From Leptotrichia wadei (GTDB lineage: Bacteria > Fusobacteriota > Fusobacteriia > Fusobacteriales > Leptotrichiaceae), in contig NZ_AP019829.2 in NCBI RefSeq assembly GCF_007990545.2, forward strand, positions 620,001 to 684,000: DNA of 64,000 bases, given 5' to 3'. The notes beneath the pieces are model-generated. The model did no database searches, had not been told where the DNA came from, and was given only the letters and a program-made list of their open reading frames with translations. Below, piece by piece: positions 13,821 to 37,571 of the stretch; within the stretch, counting starts at the first letter, position 1; each line of letters begins with the position of its first letter. The position numbers and the translations under genes were made by a program.

Positions 13821-14092
13821 AGTCATACTAGCCGGGGAGTTAGCGGTGCCCTGTATCTACAACCCGCTTTAGTAGAGGTGATGTCAAATTTGAGGGAAGT
13901 TTTAGTGTCAACGTCTTATTTCAAAAGTGTTGAGAAAATAGTCCTATATTGTAGAGAGTTAGCGAAATGTGTCAGGTCGGGAACGAAGCAGCACTAAGTT
14001 GATTTCTTTAGGTTTATAGGGTAGCTGTTTTTGAGCTTTTGACTTAAGAAACGGATGGTAGAACGTTTTCGAGAGTTTGATGTATGACTTTT
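13821..14092 (+). ncRNA. ffs: Large bacterial signal recognition particle RNA (Alu plus S domain)
   Basis: The S-domain apex GTCAGGTCGGGAACGAAGCAGC begins at 13971, matching the universal SRP RNA apical hairpin. The 5' part (CTAGCCGGGGAG, TAGCGGTGCCCTGTA) matches the Alu domain of the long, roughly 270-nt type known from Bacillus and clostridia. The ends pair: AGTCATAC (13821-13828) with GTATGACT (14082-14089), followed by a T-rich run. The RNA assembles with Ffh for cotranslational membrane targeting. In the apex the tetraloop GGAA is closed by G-C where most species have C-G. The downstream ORF must therefore start after 14092. Confidence 0.9.
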
Positions 14093-30851: not shown

Positions 30852-31595
30852 ATGAAATTTCTTTTATATAATATTCGATATGGAACTGGAAAGTATTTGA
30901 ATCAGCCATTTAAGCATATACGGGGATATCTGGGCCGTTCTGTAAAGCATATTTATCGGATTGGGAAATTTATTAACAGGTATAAGCCAGATATTGTGGG
31001 ACTTGTGGAAGTAGATCTGGGATCATTTCGGATGTATAGCAGAAATCAGGCTACACTTCTTGGGAGAATTACGAGAAATAATAATGTTTATCAATATAAA
31101 TATGAAGAAGATTCTAATTATATGAAATTTCCAATGGTAAGAAAACAAGGGAATGCTTTACTTTCTAAAAGTTCAATTATAAGGGAAGAATTTCATTATC
31201 TGGATATTGGAATGAAAAAATTGATTATTGAAGTGGAAACAAAGGATGTGATTGTGTTTCTTGTACATTTAGCACTTGGAGGGAAAACAAGACAAAAACA
31301 AATTGTGCAGCTTTATAATCTTGTGAAAAATTGTAAGAAGCCGGTTATTGTAGCTGGTGATTTTAACGTTTTTTGGGGTGAAGAGGAAATTGAGATGTTT
31401 TTGAAGGCTTCAAATTTAAAAAATATAAACACAAGAAAAGATCCAACTTTCCCAAGTTGGAATCCAAAGAGGGAACTTGATTTTATACTTTGTTCTGAAG
31501 AAATAAAAATTAATAATTATAAAGTGATACAAACTCAACTTTCAGATCATCTGCCAATATTAATTGATTTTGATATTGTTCATGTTCATTCATAA
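30852..31595 (+). CDS. Endonuclease/exonuclease/phosphatase-family hydrolase
   Basis: A 247-residue EEP-fold metal-dependent hydrolase: N-terminal LLYNIRYG, VGLVEVD (metal-binding Glu), VIVAGDFNVFWG (Asp and Asn), LDFILCS and the catalytic LSDHLPI near the C-terminus. There is no signal peptide, so it probably acts in the cytoplasm on a phosphodiester or phosphate substrate that cannot be named. It is followed by the arginine leader. Confidence 0.8.
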   Translation: MKFLLYNIRYGTGKYLNQPFKHIRGYLGRSVKHIYRIGKFINRYKPDIVGLVEVDLGSFRMYSRNQATLLGRITRNNNVYQYKYEEDSNYMKFPMVRKQGNALLSKSSIIREEFHYLDIGMKKLIIEVETKDVIVFLVHLALGGKTRQKQIVQLYNLVKNCKKPVIVAGDFNVFWGEEEIEMFLKASNLKNINTRKDPTFPSWNPKRELDFILCSEEIKINNYKVIQTQLSDHLPILIDFDIVHVHS

Positions 31596-31651: not shown

Positions 31652-31680
31652 TTGATTTTTTATAATTTTTTTGATAAAAT
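31652..31680 (+). promoter_or_regulatory. Candidate promoter of the arginine operon leader
   Basis: TTGATT (31652-31657), 17-base spacer, TAAAAT (31675-31680). It would start the RNA near 31687, about 25 bases before the AGGAGG of the leader peptide. Confidence 0.5.
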
Positions 31681-31724
31681 AAATTTATCAAAAGATAAAT
31701 AAAAAATAATTAGGAGGAAGTATT

Positions 31725-31829
31725 ATGAAAATGATAAGAAGGATAAGGGATAACAGAATAGCTGCACAATTTAATTATAGCCCCTTGTCTAAGGTATATA
31801 ATCATTTTTATAATGGATTTCTGTTTTAA
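31725..31829 (+). CDS. Arginine-rich leader peptide of the arg operon
   Basis: A 34-codon ORF with ATG at 31725 and TAA at 31827-31829, preceded by a perfect AGGAGG (31712-31717) at seven bases. It encodes M-K-M-I-R-R-I-R-D-N-R near its start: four Arg codons (AGA, AGG, AGG, AGA at positions 5, 6, 8 and 11), far above the Arg content of neighbours. It ends 129 bases before argC and just before the attenuator. This is what a ribosome-stalling leader for arginine biosynthesis should look like. No family is known to me; the regulatory role is inferred. Confidence 0.72.
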   Translation: MKMIRRIRDNRIAAQFNYSPLSKVYNHFYNGFLF

Positions 31830-31843
31830 TAAAAATAATTCTT

Positions 31844-31929
31844 GCCAATGACTTTTGGGTTGTTGGCTCTTTATTTTTATATACAAGTATAATTTTATTT
31901 GGAGCCTGTTAAGAAGGCTCTTTTATTTT
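31844..31929 (+). promoter_or_regulatory. Predicted arginine attenuator: mutually exclusive RNA pairings
   Basis: Four segments can pair in turn: GCCAA (31844-31848) with TTGGC (31863-31867); GGCTCT (31865-31870) with GGAGCC (31901-31906); GAGCCT (31902-31907) with AGGCTC (31915-31920), the terminator. The second excludes both the first and the third, the logic of a protector/antiterminator/terminator switch. Upstream, AAGGG over an Arg codon (31745-31749) can pair with CCCTT (31782-31786), and the freed TATAGCCC could reach GGGTTGT (31857-31863). Folding energies were not calculated. Confidence 0.55.
31902..31929 (+). terminator. Intrinsic terminator between arg leader and argC
   Basis: GAGCCT (31902-31907), seven-base loop, AGGCTC (31915-31920), then TTTTATTTT. 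It lies 30 bases before the argC ATG and after a complete leader ORF, so it must be read through to express the operon. Confidence 0.75.
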
Positions 31930-31958
31930 AAAAAAATATTTTAAGGAGATGATTTTAT

Positions 31959-33008
31959 ATGATAAAAGCTGGTATTATTGGAGCAACAGGATATGCTGGA
32001 CAGCAGTTGGTTTGGATATTAAATAATCATAAGGAGGTAGAACTTGAATTTATTTCATCACATTCAAATACTGGGGAAGATATGGGAAATGTATATACAA
32101 ATTATAAAAAATATTTTGAGAAAAAGTTAATTTCTCTGGAAGAAGCAAAAGAAAATTTTAAAAATATTGATGTGCTATTTTTAGCATTGCCACACGGATT
32201 ATCAGAAAAATTGACAAAGAAAGCGCTTGAAAACAATGTAAAAGTCATAGATTTGGGAGCAGATTTTAGATTAGATGATTCAGAAATTTATGAAAAATGG
32301 TACAAGGTAAAACATAACTATCCAGAAATCAATAAAAATGCAGTTTATGGGCTTCCAGAATTTTATAAGGAAAAAATAAAAAATACGAAAGTTGTGGCTT
32401 CACCTGGATGTTATCCCACTTCTGCTATTTTAGGCGTGGCACCGTTATTAAAAAATGGACTTGTTGATACGAAAAAAATTATTGTTGATTCGAAGTCAGG
32501 AGTTTCGGGGGCTGGAAGAAGTGCTAAATTGGATTTGATTTATGCTGAAGTAAATGAAAATTTTAAGGCTTATAATGTTTTGAAACATAGACACACACCT
32601 GAAATAAAGCAAGAGATGGATAAATTAGCGAATGGGAATATTAATTTAGTATTTACTCCGCATTTGTTGCCGATAAATAGAGGAATTCTTTCGACAATTT
32701 ATTTGGATGTGAAGGATGAATTTAAGGAAAGTTTGACGGAAGAAAAAATCTATGAAATTTATAATGAATTTTATAAAAATGAGTATTTTGTGAGAGTTAC
32801 AAAAGATTTGCCAGAGATAAAAAATGTGAAAAATAGTAATATTTGCGAGATTGGGGTTCGATATGACGAGGAATTTGGAAACATCGTTGTCGTGTCGGCG
32901 ATTGATAATTTGATAAAAGGCGCTGGTGGACAGGCGGTTCAGAGTATGAACATTTTATTTGGATTTGAGGAAAATGAAGGATTGGAATTTTTGTCGATGT
33001 ATTTATAA
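31959..33008 (+). CDS. argC: N-acetyl-gamma-glutamyl-phosphate reductase
   Basis: A 349-residue enzyme reducing N-acetylglutamyl phosphate to the semialdehyde with NADPH. The nucleotide-binding GATGYAGQQL is at residues 8-17 and the catalytic C151 in SPGCYPTS. Length is normal. AAGGAGATG precedes ATG. It is the first structural gene after the leader and attenuator, and its product step follows ArgB and precedes ArgD. Confidence 0.96.
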   Translation: MIKAGIIGATGYAGQQLVWILNNHKEVELEFISSHSNTGEDMGNVYTNYKKYFEKKLISLEEAKENFKNIDVLFLALPHGLSEKLTKKALENNVKVIDLGADFRLDDSEIYEKWYKVKHNYPEINKNAVYGLPEFYKEKIKNTKVVASPGCYPTSAILGVAPLLKNGLVDTKKIIVDSKSGVSGAGRSAKLDLIYAEVNENFKAYNVLKHRHTPEIKQEMDKLANGNINLVFTPHLLPINRGILSTIYLDVKDEFKESLTEEKIYEIYNEFYKNEYFVRVTKDLPEIKNVKNSNICEIGVRYDEEFGNIVVVSAIDNLIKGAGGQAVQSMNILFGFEENEGLEFLSMYL

Positions 33009-33121: not shown

Positions 33122-34342
33122 ATGAAAATAATAGAAAATGGTACGATTACTGATGTTAAAGGGATTAAAGCGACTGGAATATCGGCAAAATTGAAAAAAA
33201 GTGAAAAAAAAGATATGGCTTTGATTTATAGTGAGGAAAAGGCGGTTTCAGCTGCAGTTTTTACAAAAAATTTGGCAAAAGCTGCACCAATTATTTTGGA
33301 TATCAAACATATAAAAAATGAGAATACACAGGCGATTGTGGTAAATAGTGGGAATGCAAATTCTTGCACGGGGGATACTGGACTTGCGAATGCTAAAAAG
33401 ATGACTGAGCTAGTTGCGAATAAATTGGGACTTAAAGCTGAGGAAGTTTTGGTCCAGTCAACTGGGATTATTGGAGTTCAGCTTGATATGGAAAAAATTG
33501 AGAACGGGATTGAGAAAGTTGTGGAAAACTTATCAGAAAATGGCGGAATTGATGCGGCTACTGCGATTATGACTACTGACACCTTTGTTAAACAAATTTG
33601 CTTGGAAATTGAGATTGCTGGAAAAAAAGCTAAAGTGGCTGGAATGTGTAAAGGTTCTGGAATGATTCATCCGAATATGGCGACAATGCTTTCATTTACT
33701 GTAACTGATGTGAATATTGAAAAATCACTGTTGCAAAAAATGTTTTCTGAAATTGCTGATAACACTTTCAATATGATTTCAATCGATGGAGATACGAGCA
33801 CAAACGATATGGCTTGTGTTTTAGCGAATGGACTTGCAGGGAATGAAAAAATTGTTGATGAAAATTCGGTTGGATATGATGAGTTTAAAAAGGCGTTATA
33901 TAAAGTGAATGAAGAATTGGCTAAATTAATTGCGAAAGATGGAGAAGGTGCGACAAAATTGATTCAAGTTACAACAAATGGAGCGAAAACGCTGGAAGAT
34001 GCGAAAAAAGTTTCAAAATCAGTTATCACTTCAAGTCTTTTCAAAGCGGCGGTTTTTGGTGGCGACCCAAATTGGGGAAGAATTTTGTGTGCGGTTGGAT
34101 ATTCAGAAGCTGATTTGATGATTGATAAGGTTAATATTTTCTTAAAAACTGGAAATGACATAGTTCAAGTTGCAAAAAATGGGATGGCACAGGATTTTGA
34201 TGTTCCGAAAGCTGAGAAAATTTTGAAGGCTGAAACGGTTGAAATAATTATTGAATTAAATGATGGACAGTTTGAAGCGACTGCTTGGGGATGTGACTTG
34301 AGTTACGATTATGTGAAAATTAATGCGGAGTATCATACTTAA
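33122..34342 (+). CDS. argJ: Glutamate N-acetyltransferase / ornithine acetyltransferase
   Basis: A 406-residue ArgJ. The self-cleavage site is A187-T188 in MATML; the new N-terminal Thr is the nucleophile that moves acetyl from acetylornithine to glutamate. In the absence of a visible argA it may also use acetyl-CoA (bifunctional form). There is no Shine-Dalgarno before ATG 33122; a good AAAGGAG lies at 33058-33064 and is followed by a five-codon GTG ORF and a 10-bp AT hairpin (33075-33084 with 33094-33103). Confidence 0.95.
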   Translation: MKIIENGTITDVKGIKATGISAKLKKSEKKDMALIYSEEKAVSAAVFTKNLAKAAPIILDIKHIKNENTQAIVVNSGNANSCTGDTGLANAKKMTELVANKLGLKAEEVLVQSTGIIGVQLDMEKIENGIEKVVENLSENGGIDAATAIMTTDTFVKQICLEIEIAGKKAKVAGMCKGSGMIHPNMATMLSFTVTDVNIEKSLLQKMFSEIADNTFNMISIDGDTSTNDMACVLANGLAGNEKIVDENSVGYDEFKKALYKVNEELAKLIAKDGEGATKLIQVTTNGAKTLEDAKKVSKSVITSSLFKAAVFGGDPNWGRILCAVGYSEADLMIDKVNIFLKTGNDIVQVAKNGMAQDFDVPKAEKILKAETVEIIIELNDGQFEATAWGCDLSYDYVKINAEYHT

Positions 34343-34486
34343 TAATTTTTAAAATAAAATTTATGATTTTAAGAATTATTTGTTAGTAAACTTTTCAAGA
34401 TAAATTTTGAAAAAAATTATTTTTAAAATTAAATTTTTGAAAAACTAAAAAATAAGAAAAATTTTAATAATGAAGAAAGGGAAAAT

Positions 34487-35377
34487 ATGATTTCAAATTT
34501 AGATAAAGCAAAAATTTTGGTAAAGGCGTTGCCATTTATAAAAAAATATCATAATAAAACGATTGTTATTAAATATGGTGGAAGTGCGATGGTTAATCCT
34601 GTTGCACGAGAACAGTTTATTCAAGATGTGGTTCTTATGAAATATGTTGGGATAAATCCTGTGATTGTGCATGGTGGAGGACCTGAGATAAATGAGATGT
34701 TGAATAAGATTGGAAAAGAGAGCAAATTTGTCGCAGGAAATCGTGTGACTGATGAGGAAACAATGGAAATTGTAGAAATGGTGCTTTCTGGGAAAGTTAA
34801 TAAAGGAATTGTGTCAGATATTAATAAATATGGTGGAAAAGCTGTGGGCCTTAGCGGAAAAGACGGAAATATGGTATTTGTCGAGAAAAAGTTTGTTGAA
34901 GTTGATGGAGAAAAGGTTGATATTGGATTTGTCGGAGAGATTAAGGAAATTAATACGGAAGTTATAAAATTGTTGGAGTCGAATGATACGATTCCTGTGA
35001 TTTCGTCAATTGGAGTTGACAAAAATGGTCAGACATACAATATTAATGCGGATTATGTGGCAGGTGCGATTGCTGGGAAATTACAAGCTGATAGACTGAT
35101 ATTTTTGACAGATGTCGATGGAATTTTGCTTGACTACAACAATAAACAAACGCTTATTGATGAAATTGACGTGGAAAAAGTGAACGATTTAATCGAGCGT
35201 GGAATTATCAGTGGTGGAATGTTGCCAAAAGTTACAACTTGCTTGAATGCAATTGAAAATGGTGTGGAAAATGTTGTTATTCTAAATGGTAAATTGGAAC
35301 ATTCTGTGATTCTTGAGTTGTTTACAGTTGAAGGAGCTGGAACACTGATTAAGAAAGATGCAAATTTAGAGGATTAA
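34487..35377 (+). CDS. argB: N-acetylglutamate kinase
   Basis: A 296-residue amino acid kinase: VIKYGGSAM near residue 27 with catalytic Lys, HGGGPEIN near 61, and FLTDVDGIL near 206. It phosphorylates N-acetylglutamate, the committed step of the acetyl cycle, and is often feedback-inhibited by arginine in organisms that use ArgJ. GAAGAAAGGGAAAAT precedes ATG. It lies 144 bases after argJ. Confidence 0.96.
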   Translation: MISNLDKAKILVKALPFIKKYHNKTIVIKYGGSAMVNPVAREQFIQDVVLMKYVGINPVIVHGGGPEINEMLNKIGKESKFVAGNRVTDEETMEIVEMVLSGKVNKGIVSDINKYGGKAVGLSGKDGNMVFVEKKFVEVDGEKVDIGFVGEIKEINTEVIKLLESNDTIPVISSIGVDKNGQTYNINADYVAGAIAGKLQADRLIFLTDVDGILLDYNNKQTLIDEIDVEKVNDLIERGIISGGMLPKVTTCLNAIENGVENVVILNGKLEHSVILELFTVEGAGTLIKKDANLED

Positions 35378-35492
35378 AATTATTTGAAAAAGGAAAATGT
35401 CTGAAACATAAAAATATTTTGTAAAGATTTTGAAGTTAAACATTAGAAGATTATCGAATATTTTCTAAAAAAATTAAGAAAGAAGTGATTTA

Positions 35493-36680
35493 ATGTTATT
35501 AAATGTATATAGCCGTTATAATAAAATTTTTGAAAAAGGAAAAGGAACATATATTTACGATAATGAAGGGAATGAATATTTAGATTTTGTGTCGGGAATT
35601 TCAGTAAATTGCTTGGGACACGCAAGTCCTGTGATTACAAAGGCTTTAACGGAGCAAAGTCAAAAATTGGTGCATATTTCTAATTTGTATTACAGTCAGC
35701 CACAATTGGATTTGGCGAATAAACTTACTGAAAATAGTGAAATGGAAAGCGTATTTTTTACAAATAGTGGAACTGAAGCGATTGAGTTGGCTTTGAAAAT
35801 TGCTCGAAAATATGGGAATAATTTGTCGTACGATGAAAATGGAAACAAAATTGCTGATAAAACAGAAATAATATATATGAAAAATTCGTTTCACGGAAGA
35901 AGTACTGGAGCGTTGGCAGTTACTGGTCAGCCGAAATATCAAAAACCGTTTGAACCGTTGATGAAAAATGTTACTGAATGTAATTTTAATGATGTTAAAG
36001 ATTTAAAAGCTAAAGTAAGTGAAAAAACTGCTGCCATTATTTTGGAGCCAATTCAGGGAGAAAGCGGACTTGAGAGTGCTACTCCTGAATTTATGGAAGC
36101 TATAAAAGAATTGAGCAAAAAATATGATACACTTGTGATTTTTGATGAAATTCAATGTGGAATGGGAAGAACTGGAAAACTATTCGCATATGAAAACTTT
36201 AATTTAGTGCCAGATATAGTTACAATCGCAAAATCACTTGGTGGCGGAGTTCCGATTGGAGCTTGTCTGACAAAAGGGAAAGCAAATGATGTGCTGGTTC
36301 CTGGCGACCACGGTTCAACTTATGGTGGAAATCCTTTGGTTTGTGCCGTTGCAAATGCTGTTTTACACGAATTAATTGACAACAAATTAATTGAAAAAAA
36401 TGTTGTGGAAAAAGGTCAGTATTCTGTGGAAAAATTGGAAAAATTAAAGGAAAAATTTGATTTTATCGAAGAAATTCGTGGAAAAGGACTTCTTTTGGGA
36501 ATAAAATTTGATGAGAAAAAAGTTTTGGCAAAAGATGTTGTTTTAAAAACATTAGAAAATGGGTTGTTGCTAGTCGGAGCTGGAAATAATGTTGTGAGAT
36601 TTTTTCCGCCGTTTAATGTGACAGATGGGGAAATTGACAAAGCTATTTCGATTTTGGAAAAAGTTTTGAAAACATTTTAA
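35493..36680 (+). CDS. argD: Acetylornithine aminotransferase
   Basis: A 395-residue PLP-dependent class III aminotransferase. TNSGTEAIE (phosphate contacts) is at about residues 90-98, FDEIQCGMGRTG near 218, and the Schiff-base Lys is K247 in IAKSLGGG. It makes N-acetylornithine from the ArgC product. AAGAAGTGATTTA precedes ATG. Codon use and spacing match its neighbours. Confidence 0.95.
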   Translation: MLLNVYSRYNKIFEKGKGTYIYDNEGNEYLDFVSGISVNCLGHASPVITKALTEQSQKLVHISNLYYSQPQLDLANKLTENSEMESVFFTNSGTEAIELALKIARKYGNNLSYDENGNKIADKTEIIYMKNSFHGRSTGALAVTGQPKYQKPFEPLMKNVTECNFNDVKDLKAKVSEKTAAIILEPIQGESGLESATPEFMEAIKELSKKYDTLVIFDEIQCGMGRTGKLFAYENFNLVPDIVTIAKSLGGGVPIGACLTKGKANDVLVPGDHGSTYGGNPLVCAVANAVLHELIDNKLIEKNVVEKGQYSVEKLEKLKEKFDFIEEIRGKGLLLGIKFDEKKVLAKDVVLKTLENGLLLVGAGNNVVRFFPPFNVTDGEIDKAISILEKVLKTF

Positions 36681-37513: not shown

Positions 37514-37536
37514 AGCAAGGGACAGAATCTCTTGTT
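37514..37536 (+). promoter_or_regulatory. Hairpin in front of argF
   Basis: CAAGGGA (37516-37522), loop CAGAA, TCTCTTG (37528-37534) forms a seven-pair stem, extendable by two weaker pairs, with no T run after it. It lies 36 bases before argF. It may affect RNA stability or processing between the hypothetical gene and argF. Confidence 0.4.
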
Positions 37537-37571
37537 GTGATATGATAAAAAATAAAAATTAAGGAGAAATT

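Follow-up and report, generated by a model that had tools for sequence, protein, structure and literature searches.

The window, the whole 64,000-nt stretch of Leptotrichia wadei DNA that was analysed (contig NZ_AP019829.2, positions 620,001 to 684,000), carries the arginine biosynthesis genes argC, argJ, argB and argD on its + strand, with argF located further downstream. The preceding gene on the same strand ends at 31595, and a leader region lies between it and argC, directly ahead of argCJBD. The following features were assigned, segments 2 and 3 being based on constrained folding and shuffles:

31652–31680, + strand: promoter-like site TTGATT-17-TAAAAT with TG before the -10; a similar TTGATT/TGnTATAAT was seen by eye at the same place in relatives
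31712–31717, + strand: Shine–Dalgarno (SD) sequence AGGAGG of the leader ORF
31721–31735, + strand: 5' arm of the P1 outer stem, which encloses the start codon; partner 31801–31815
31725–31829, + strand: leader peptide ORF MKMIRRIRDNRIAAQFNYSPLSKVYNHFYNGFLF, 34 codons, ATG at 31725; N-terminal part kept in all 17 argC-bearing family genomes
31737–31757, + strand: putative sensing codons AGA AGG ATA AGG GAT AAC AGA (Arg 5, 6, 8 and 11)
31742–31749, + strand: 5' arm of the P1 inner stem, GATAAGGG, within the Arg codons; partner 31782–31789 (99.3% of cells paired, 18 sequences)
31778–31796, + strand: segment 2, predicted antiterminator strand (TAGCCC, GTC, GGTA), common to the P1 inner stem
31782–31789, + strand: 3' arm of the P1 inner stem, CCCTTGTC
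31801–31815, + strand: 3' arm of the P1 outer stem
31843–31862, + strand: segment 3, predicted antiterminator partner (TGCC, GAC, GGGTTG), common to P2
31844–31879, + strand: P2 hairpin GCCAA/TTGGC (31844–31867) followed by the U-rich tail TCTTTATTTTT, the first terminator-like structure
31865–31870, + strand: segment 4, GGCTCT; predicted to pair with 31901–31906 as the second antiterminator (p ≤ 0.025 by shuffling, L001–L012)
31901–31929, + strand: second terminator with segment 5, GGAGCC (31901–31906), stem 31902–31920, then TTTTATTTT; an equivalent is present in all argC-bearing relatives of the family
31959–33008, + strand: argC, first gene of the operon predicted to be controlled
33122–36680, + strand: argJ (33122–34342), argB (34487–35377) and argD (35493–36680)

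Transcription from the promoter-like site would start at about 31687. A start downstream of 31829, which an earlier note on this sequence had named as an outcome contrary to its proposal of an attenuator, does not have to be assumed, because the promoter-like site lies upstream of the ORF. The AGGAGG sequence, the 34-codon ORF and Arg at codons 5, 6, 8 and 11 were all present where that note had placed them, as were the pairings GCCAA/TTGGC, GGCTCT/GGAGCC, AAGGG/CCCTT and TATAGCCC/GGGTTGT. Two of its descriptions had to be corrected in part: the intrinsic terminator before argC exists but ends 38 bases before the gene, not 30, and the hairpin at the Arg codons exists but is much larger than described, also enclosing the start codon (31721–31735 with 31801–31815).

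Two terminator-like sites were detected on the + strand versus 0.4 expected from shuffles (both strands, 1.5-kb region). The leader RNA folded 3.0 sd better than its dinucleotide shuffles, with 0 of 200 shuffles being as good. Among the 44 genes of the window, argC was the only one preceded by an SD-led short ORF with at least three Arg in the first 13 codons. No Rfam family was detected at the leader when the window was searched, and the leader peptide did not match known peptide families, Pfam giving no match at an E of 1, with very short peptides being hard for HMMs.

An imperfect hairpin, AGCAAGGGA...TCTCTTGTTGT, was seen at 37515–37545 of the window, just ahead of argF and without an Arg leader; no Arg leader was found ahead of argG in the window's genus either. 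A large SRP RNA gene (RF01854, 140 bits) is located at 13823–14087. A pattern search of the window's own genome indicated, among the matches listed (about the first 100 of 122), MFRLRGSRRRK at C1:833139 as a further Arg-Arg leader, which was rejected as it is actually the start of a long protein.

Conservation and covariation of the leader in Leptotrichiaceae

The search for ArgC in 33 genomes of the family revealed 17 with a true argC; an 18th match was weak (26% identity over 108 residues) and was left out. The leader was located ahead of argC in all 17 argC-bearing genomes, representing six numbered genera, a count which includes the genus of the weak match. These leaders had a common design comprising a strong SD, an ORF of 13–34 codons, the residues RIR within a few codons of the start and 2–5 Arg codons. 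The sequence AGGATAAGGG was invariant across the 17 leaders, and two U-tailed hairpins were present between the leader ORF and argC in every argC-bearing member. The earlier note had considered an ORF or Arg codons unconserved in relatives as evidence against its proposal; the opposite was found, with both conserved in 17 of 17.

A covariance model of 18 sequences detected exactly one copy in each of the 17 argC-bearing genomes and no match in the 16 family genomes that lack argC, to which three species of the window's genus belong. Because the model was built from the 17 genomes' own sequences, the informative part of this result is the single copy and the 16 empty genomes.

Covarying stems in aligned relatives, a check proposed in the earlier note, were found for both P1 and P2. 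The consensus structure had 34 pairs, 12 of them with changes on both sides, and the P1 inner stem together with P2 was 96.6% paired, with a covariation score above all shuffles. Four covarying pairs belonged to P2. In the P1 inner stem (GATAAGGG/CCCTTGTC) the 5' side is invariant across the family and also codes for Arg-Ile-Arg, and the 3' side varied only with the pairing kept (U-G to U-A, G-C to G-U and one C-G in L019). The outer P1 stem was kept with differing sequences, TATTATGAAAATGAT/ATCATTTTTATAATG in the window versus CAATGATTAAATT/AATTTAATCATTG in the Sebaldella-like group; outer-arm sequences differed between genera, and P1 complementarity was far beyond shuffles in all Leptotrichiaceae. 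The protector hairpin P1 (1:2) overlaps the sensing Arg codons. The first 8–10 residues of the leader peptide were conserved within Leptotrichiaceae, which is explained by the pairing in P1.

In 16 of the 18 sequences the leader stop codon fell at or slightly beyond segment 2, 9–29 nt downstream of the first base of the P1 inner 3' arm, and a ribosome finishing at this usual position would mask segment 2. The exceptions were L008, whose leader stops early, inside P1, and the window, in which the stop lies 14 nt before P2. Positions 31791–31793 read AAG in the window versus a TAG stop in the sister genome L002, and the window leader is 12 codons longer than that of L002, its closest relative. 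By this comparison, the 34-codon ORF of the window is atypical among its relatives.

In the Sebaldella-like genomes L014–L017 an inverted repeat, AAAATCgATATacaaaacATATtGATTTT, was seen upstream of the -35 and overlapping it. It is a possible operator.

Antiterminator pairings and the predicted switch

For the 2:3 pairing, the RNA was folded as if made only to the loop side of P2, with the Arg codons covered by a ribosome footprint. In the window, this gave a composite antiterminator of TAGCCC/GGGTTG, GTC/GAC and GGTA/TGCC. Corresponding pairings were AACCC/GGGTT with GTCA/TGAC in L009 and L012, GATCCTTT/AAAGGGTT with TCATTG/CAATGA in L007, AATCCT/AGGGTT with TTATTG/CAATAA in L005 and TGACTAAT/ATTAGTCA in the Sebaldella-like group. 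The shuffle test, which took in the loop and inner 3' side of P2, gave p ≤ 0.05 in most lineages, L005, L016 and L021–L023 not being among them. For L013, whose P2 sequence is unrelated, no partner from 22 other genomes paired as well. As 2:3 shares bases with both P1 and P2, the pairings are mutually exclusive; in Leptotrichia-like genomes, 4:5 adds a further antiterminator to this set.

The second pairing, 4:5 (GGCTCT/GGAGCC in the window), was significant in all 12 genomes L001–L012 (p ≤ 0.025), with L005 and L006 reaching as much as -18 kcal/mol. In the Sebaldella-like genomes it was no better than shuffles, despite good 2:3 pairing. The relay proposed in the earlier note, in which opened P1 lets TATAGCCC pair with GGGTTGT and GGCTCT is freed for GGAGCC, agrees with these data, as constrained folding returned the same antiterminator.

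When a ribosome was placed at Arg 5–6 in L007, L008, L009, L011 and L012, the predicted probability of P2 before completion of the second terminator fell from 0.44–0.98 to 0.00–0.38; with the ribosome at the stop codon in the same genomes, P2 stayed at 0.74–0.98. For the window's own sequence, the effect of the ribosome was slight. P2 won in every state at equilibrium, its lowest values being 0.89 at the P2 end and 0.93 before the second terminator was complete, and the second terminator dominated most states of the full-length RNA. Equilibrium folding of the Sebaldella-like group with the ribosome on the sensing codons revealed no structural switch. The fold with blocked Arg codons suggested in the earlier note bore it out in part: the antiterminator was obtained under the constraint, but the thermodynamic switch was weak in the window's own sequence. 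Because P2 and the second terminator dominate at equilibrium, a switch in the window would have to be kinetic. Classical attenuators are thought to switch kinetically.

Arginine-rich leaders and missing regulators in the phylum

Several Arg-rich leaders of other sequence, followed by terminators, were identified ahead of argC in group f2, which we take to be Fusobacteriaceae: MMFRISRTRRQ, MLFRIRRMRRN, MMLLRNFRIM, MLRESFRGSR, MLRRNYRQK, MRRYRRIRSK and MIKFLKRTSYTR. In L026, L027 and L030 two complete Arg-rich leaders with terminators were arranged in tandem ahead of one argC. The leaderless argC genes included some located closely behind another gene (L020, L031).

Arg-rich leaders also preceded other genes, with terminators between leader and gene. 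Sebaldella-like genomes carried them ahead of argG (MRNNFRIM, MKNFFRM). Within Fusobacteriaceae, leaders MTMRRILRTQ, MLLTVLRKRN, MLLVMNLRSRR and MLMITLLRNRK were found in L052, L054, L062 and L065 ahead of family-3 solute-binding protein genes upstream of argG; the L054 leader, absent from the training set, was matched at full length by the covariance model at E 1e-6. In L063 and L066, ABC-transporter permease genes were preceded by MLMNIRIRRRK and MLTMKRIRRSK. The position of these ABC transporters behind Arg-rich leaders suggests that they carry arginine.

Of the 298 residues in 23 leaders, 74 were Arg, compared with 2.5% in the genes at these loci. This fraction carries some bias, since Arg content served to find the non-argC leaders, though not the family argC leaders. 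AGG accounted for 49 of the 74 Arg codons in the leaders and for 15% of those in the genes.

Arginine genes are a textbook case of repressor control, and ArgR had been named in the earlier note as the classical alternative. None of the 33 family genomes contained ArgR (PF02863), and 97 of the 98 phylum genomes lacked it, in a search with positive controls in E. coli, B. subtilis and six others. The sole ArgR-like matches in the phylum were two PF02863 matches within 326-aa open frames on contig C2 of G097. No T-box (RF00230) match was found in the window or its own genome. T-box-like matches below Rfam's threshold were seen in six of the 33 family genomes (L107–L112), one per genome and none in the window's genus.

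Proposed attenuation mechanism and its alternatives

The argCJBD leader is very probably a ribosome-mediated transcription attenuator sensing charged tRNA-Arg, as judged from its conservation, the covariation of P1 and P2, the 2:3 and 4:5 complementarity and the absence of ArgR. The trp/his-type organisation ahead of argC described in the earlier note was mostly right, with conservation, covariation and ArgR absence in its support. We infer the translation, stalling, termination and order of folding of the leader as follows. RNA polymerase would transcribe the leader with a ribosome following behind. When arginine is ample, the ribosome would clear the AGA/AGG cluster and reach the stop codon, located at segment 2 in most relatives, so that segment 2 is masked; P2 and the second terminator could then fold, ending transcription before argC. 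The same outcome is predicted when there is no translation at all, through the formation of P1. When arginine is short, the ribosome would stall at codons 5–8 and hold the P1 5' arm, leaving segment 2 free for segment 3. The 2:3 pairing would block P2, and segment 4 would then pair with segment 5, which would keep the second terminator from forming and let transcription run on into argCJBD.

It is unlikely that arginine or ornithine is sensed by the nascent peptide inside the ribosome tunnel, through SpeFL- or TnaC-like arrest, rather than by codons and charged tRNA. The first 8–10 residues are indeed conserved within Leptotrichiaceae, and the speF gene, whose leader orf34/SpeFL contains Arg, is also ornithine-responsive (PMC6386406). 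However, the within-family conservation is accounted for by P1 pairing, the leader peptide has no Pfam match, the shift to AGG codons points to tRNA sensing and what is retained from one family to another is chiefly the Arg residues (RISRTRR, RIRRMRR, RNFRI, RRYRRIR, RKRNSQR). Leaders of different families have little in common beyond their Arg codons, which favours the sensing of codons over that of the peptide.

Leader translation acting without intrinsic termination, by Rho protection, RNA decay or control of argC translation, seems still less likely, even though Salmonella orf34 acts via Rho and RNase G (PMC6386406) and S. aureus rbfL blocks a ribosome-binding site (PMC13009471), since two U-tailed terminator hairpins separate the leader from argC in every argC-bearing family member and a long distance separates the end of the leader ORF from the argC ribosome-binding site. 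The least probable explanation is that ordinary intergenic terminators lie next to a chance ORF with no regulation. The terminators could belong to the gene ending at 31595, but the ORF, the Arg codons, P1 and both hairpins are conserved in 17 of 17 genomes, the leader sits behind its own promoter-like site and chance Arg-rich ORFs are rare.

The attenuator proposed here shows most of the sequence-level hallmarks of its class that were examined and resembles the trp/his/leu/ilv attenuators of Proteobacteria, Actinobacteria and some Firmicutes in its SD-led ORF rich in codons for the operon's amino acid, its protector, antiterminator and terminator pairings and, in 16 of the 18 sequences, its stop codon at segment 2. 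It differs in that it would sense arginine and control arg genes in a Fusobacteriota host, and in its long P1 enclosing the start codon and two serial terminators with a relayed second antiterminator. ArgR/AhrC control of argC operons has the same target and signal but relies on a DNA-binding repressor, absent here. T-box riboswitches also sense tRNA charging for termination but bind tRNA directly, without a leader ORF. To our knowledge, no arginine biosynthetic operon has been described with a leader-peptide attenuator. None was found in the open literature, with the Lopatovskaya 2010 comparative survey (cited in PMC4833913) left aside. A 2010 survey that described a His leader in bacilli knew of earlier leader-peptide systems only from Proteobacteria and Actinobacteria (PMC2965389). 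The orf34 (SpeFL) leader of Salmonella speF shares the 34-codon length and consecutive Arg codons, and ribosome pausing on it at low arginine alters the downstream RNA structure (PMC6386406). It differs in controlling ornithine decarboxylase through Rho, RNase G and RBS access, with another peptide and no intrinsic terminator pair; the argC leader peptide did not match its family, PF10940, at an E of 1, very short peptides being hard for HMMs. In Staphylococcus aureus, the rbfL leader likewise uses AGA/AGG codons to sense arginine limitation but blocks translation of rbf, a biofilm regulator, with no attenuation of an arg operon (PMC13009471).

We lean towards the view that Arg-codon attenuators are a phylum-wide substitute for ArgR in Fusobacteriota, controlling the argC and argG operons and the uptake of amino acids, probably arginine. 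Their design would be a relay through two terminators (P1 to 2:3 to 4:5), and the entire device would be repeated in tandem in some genomes. If this is true, a whole phylum would have swapped ArgR for translation-coupled RNA switches sensing tRNA-Arg charging. The leader set would constitute a natural test of codon versus peptide sensing, with mainly the Arg codons kept and the surrounding RNA rebuilt, and its marked AGG use would make isoacceptor-sensitive codon choice testable outside Proteobacteria.
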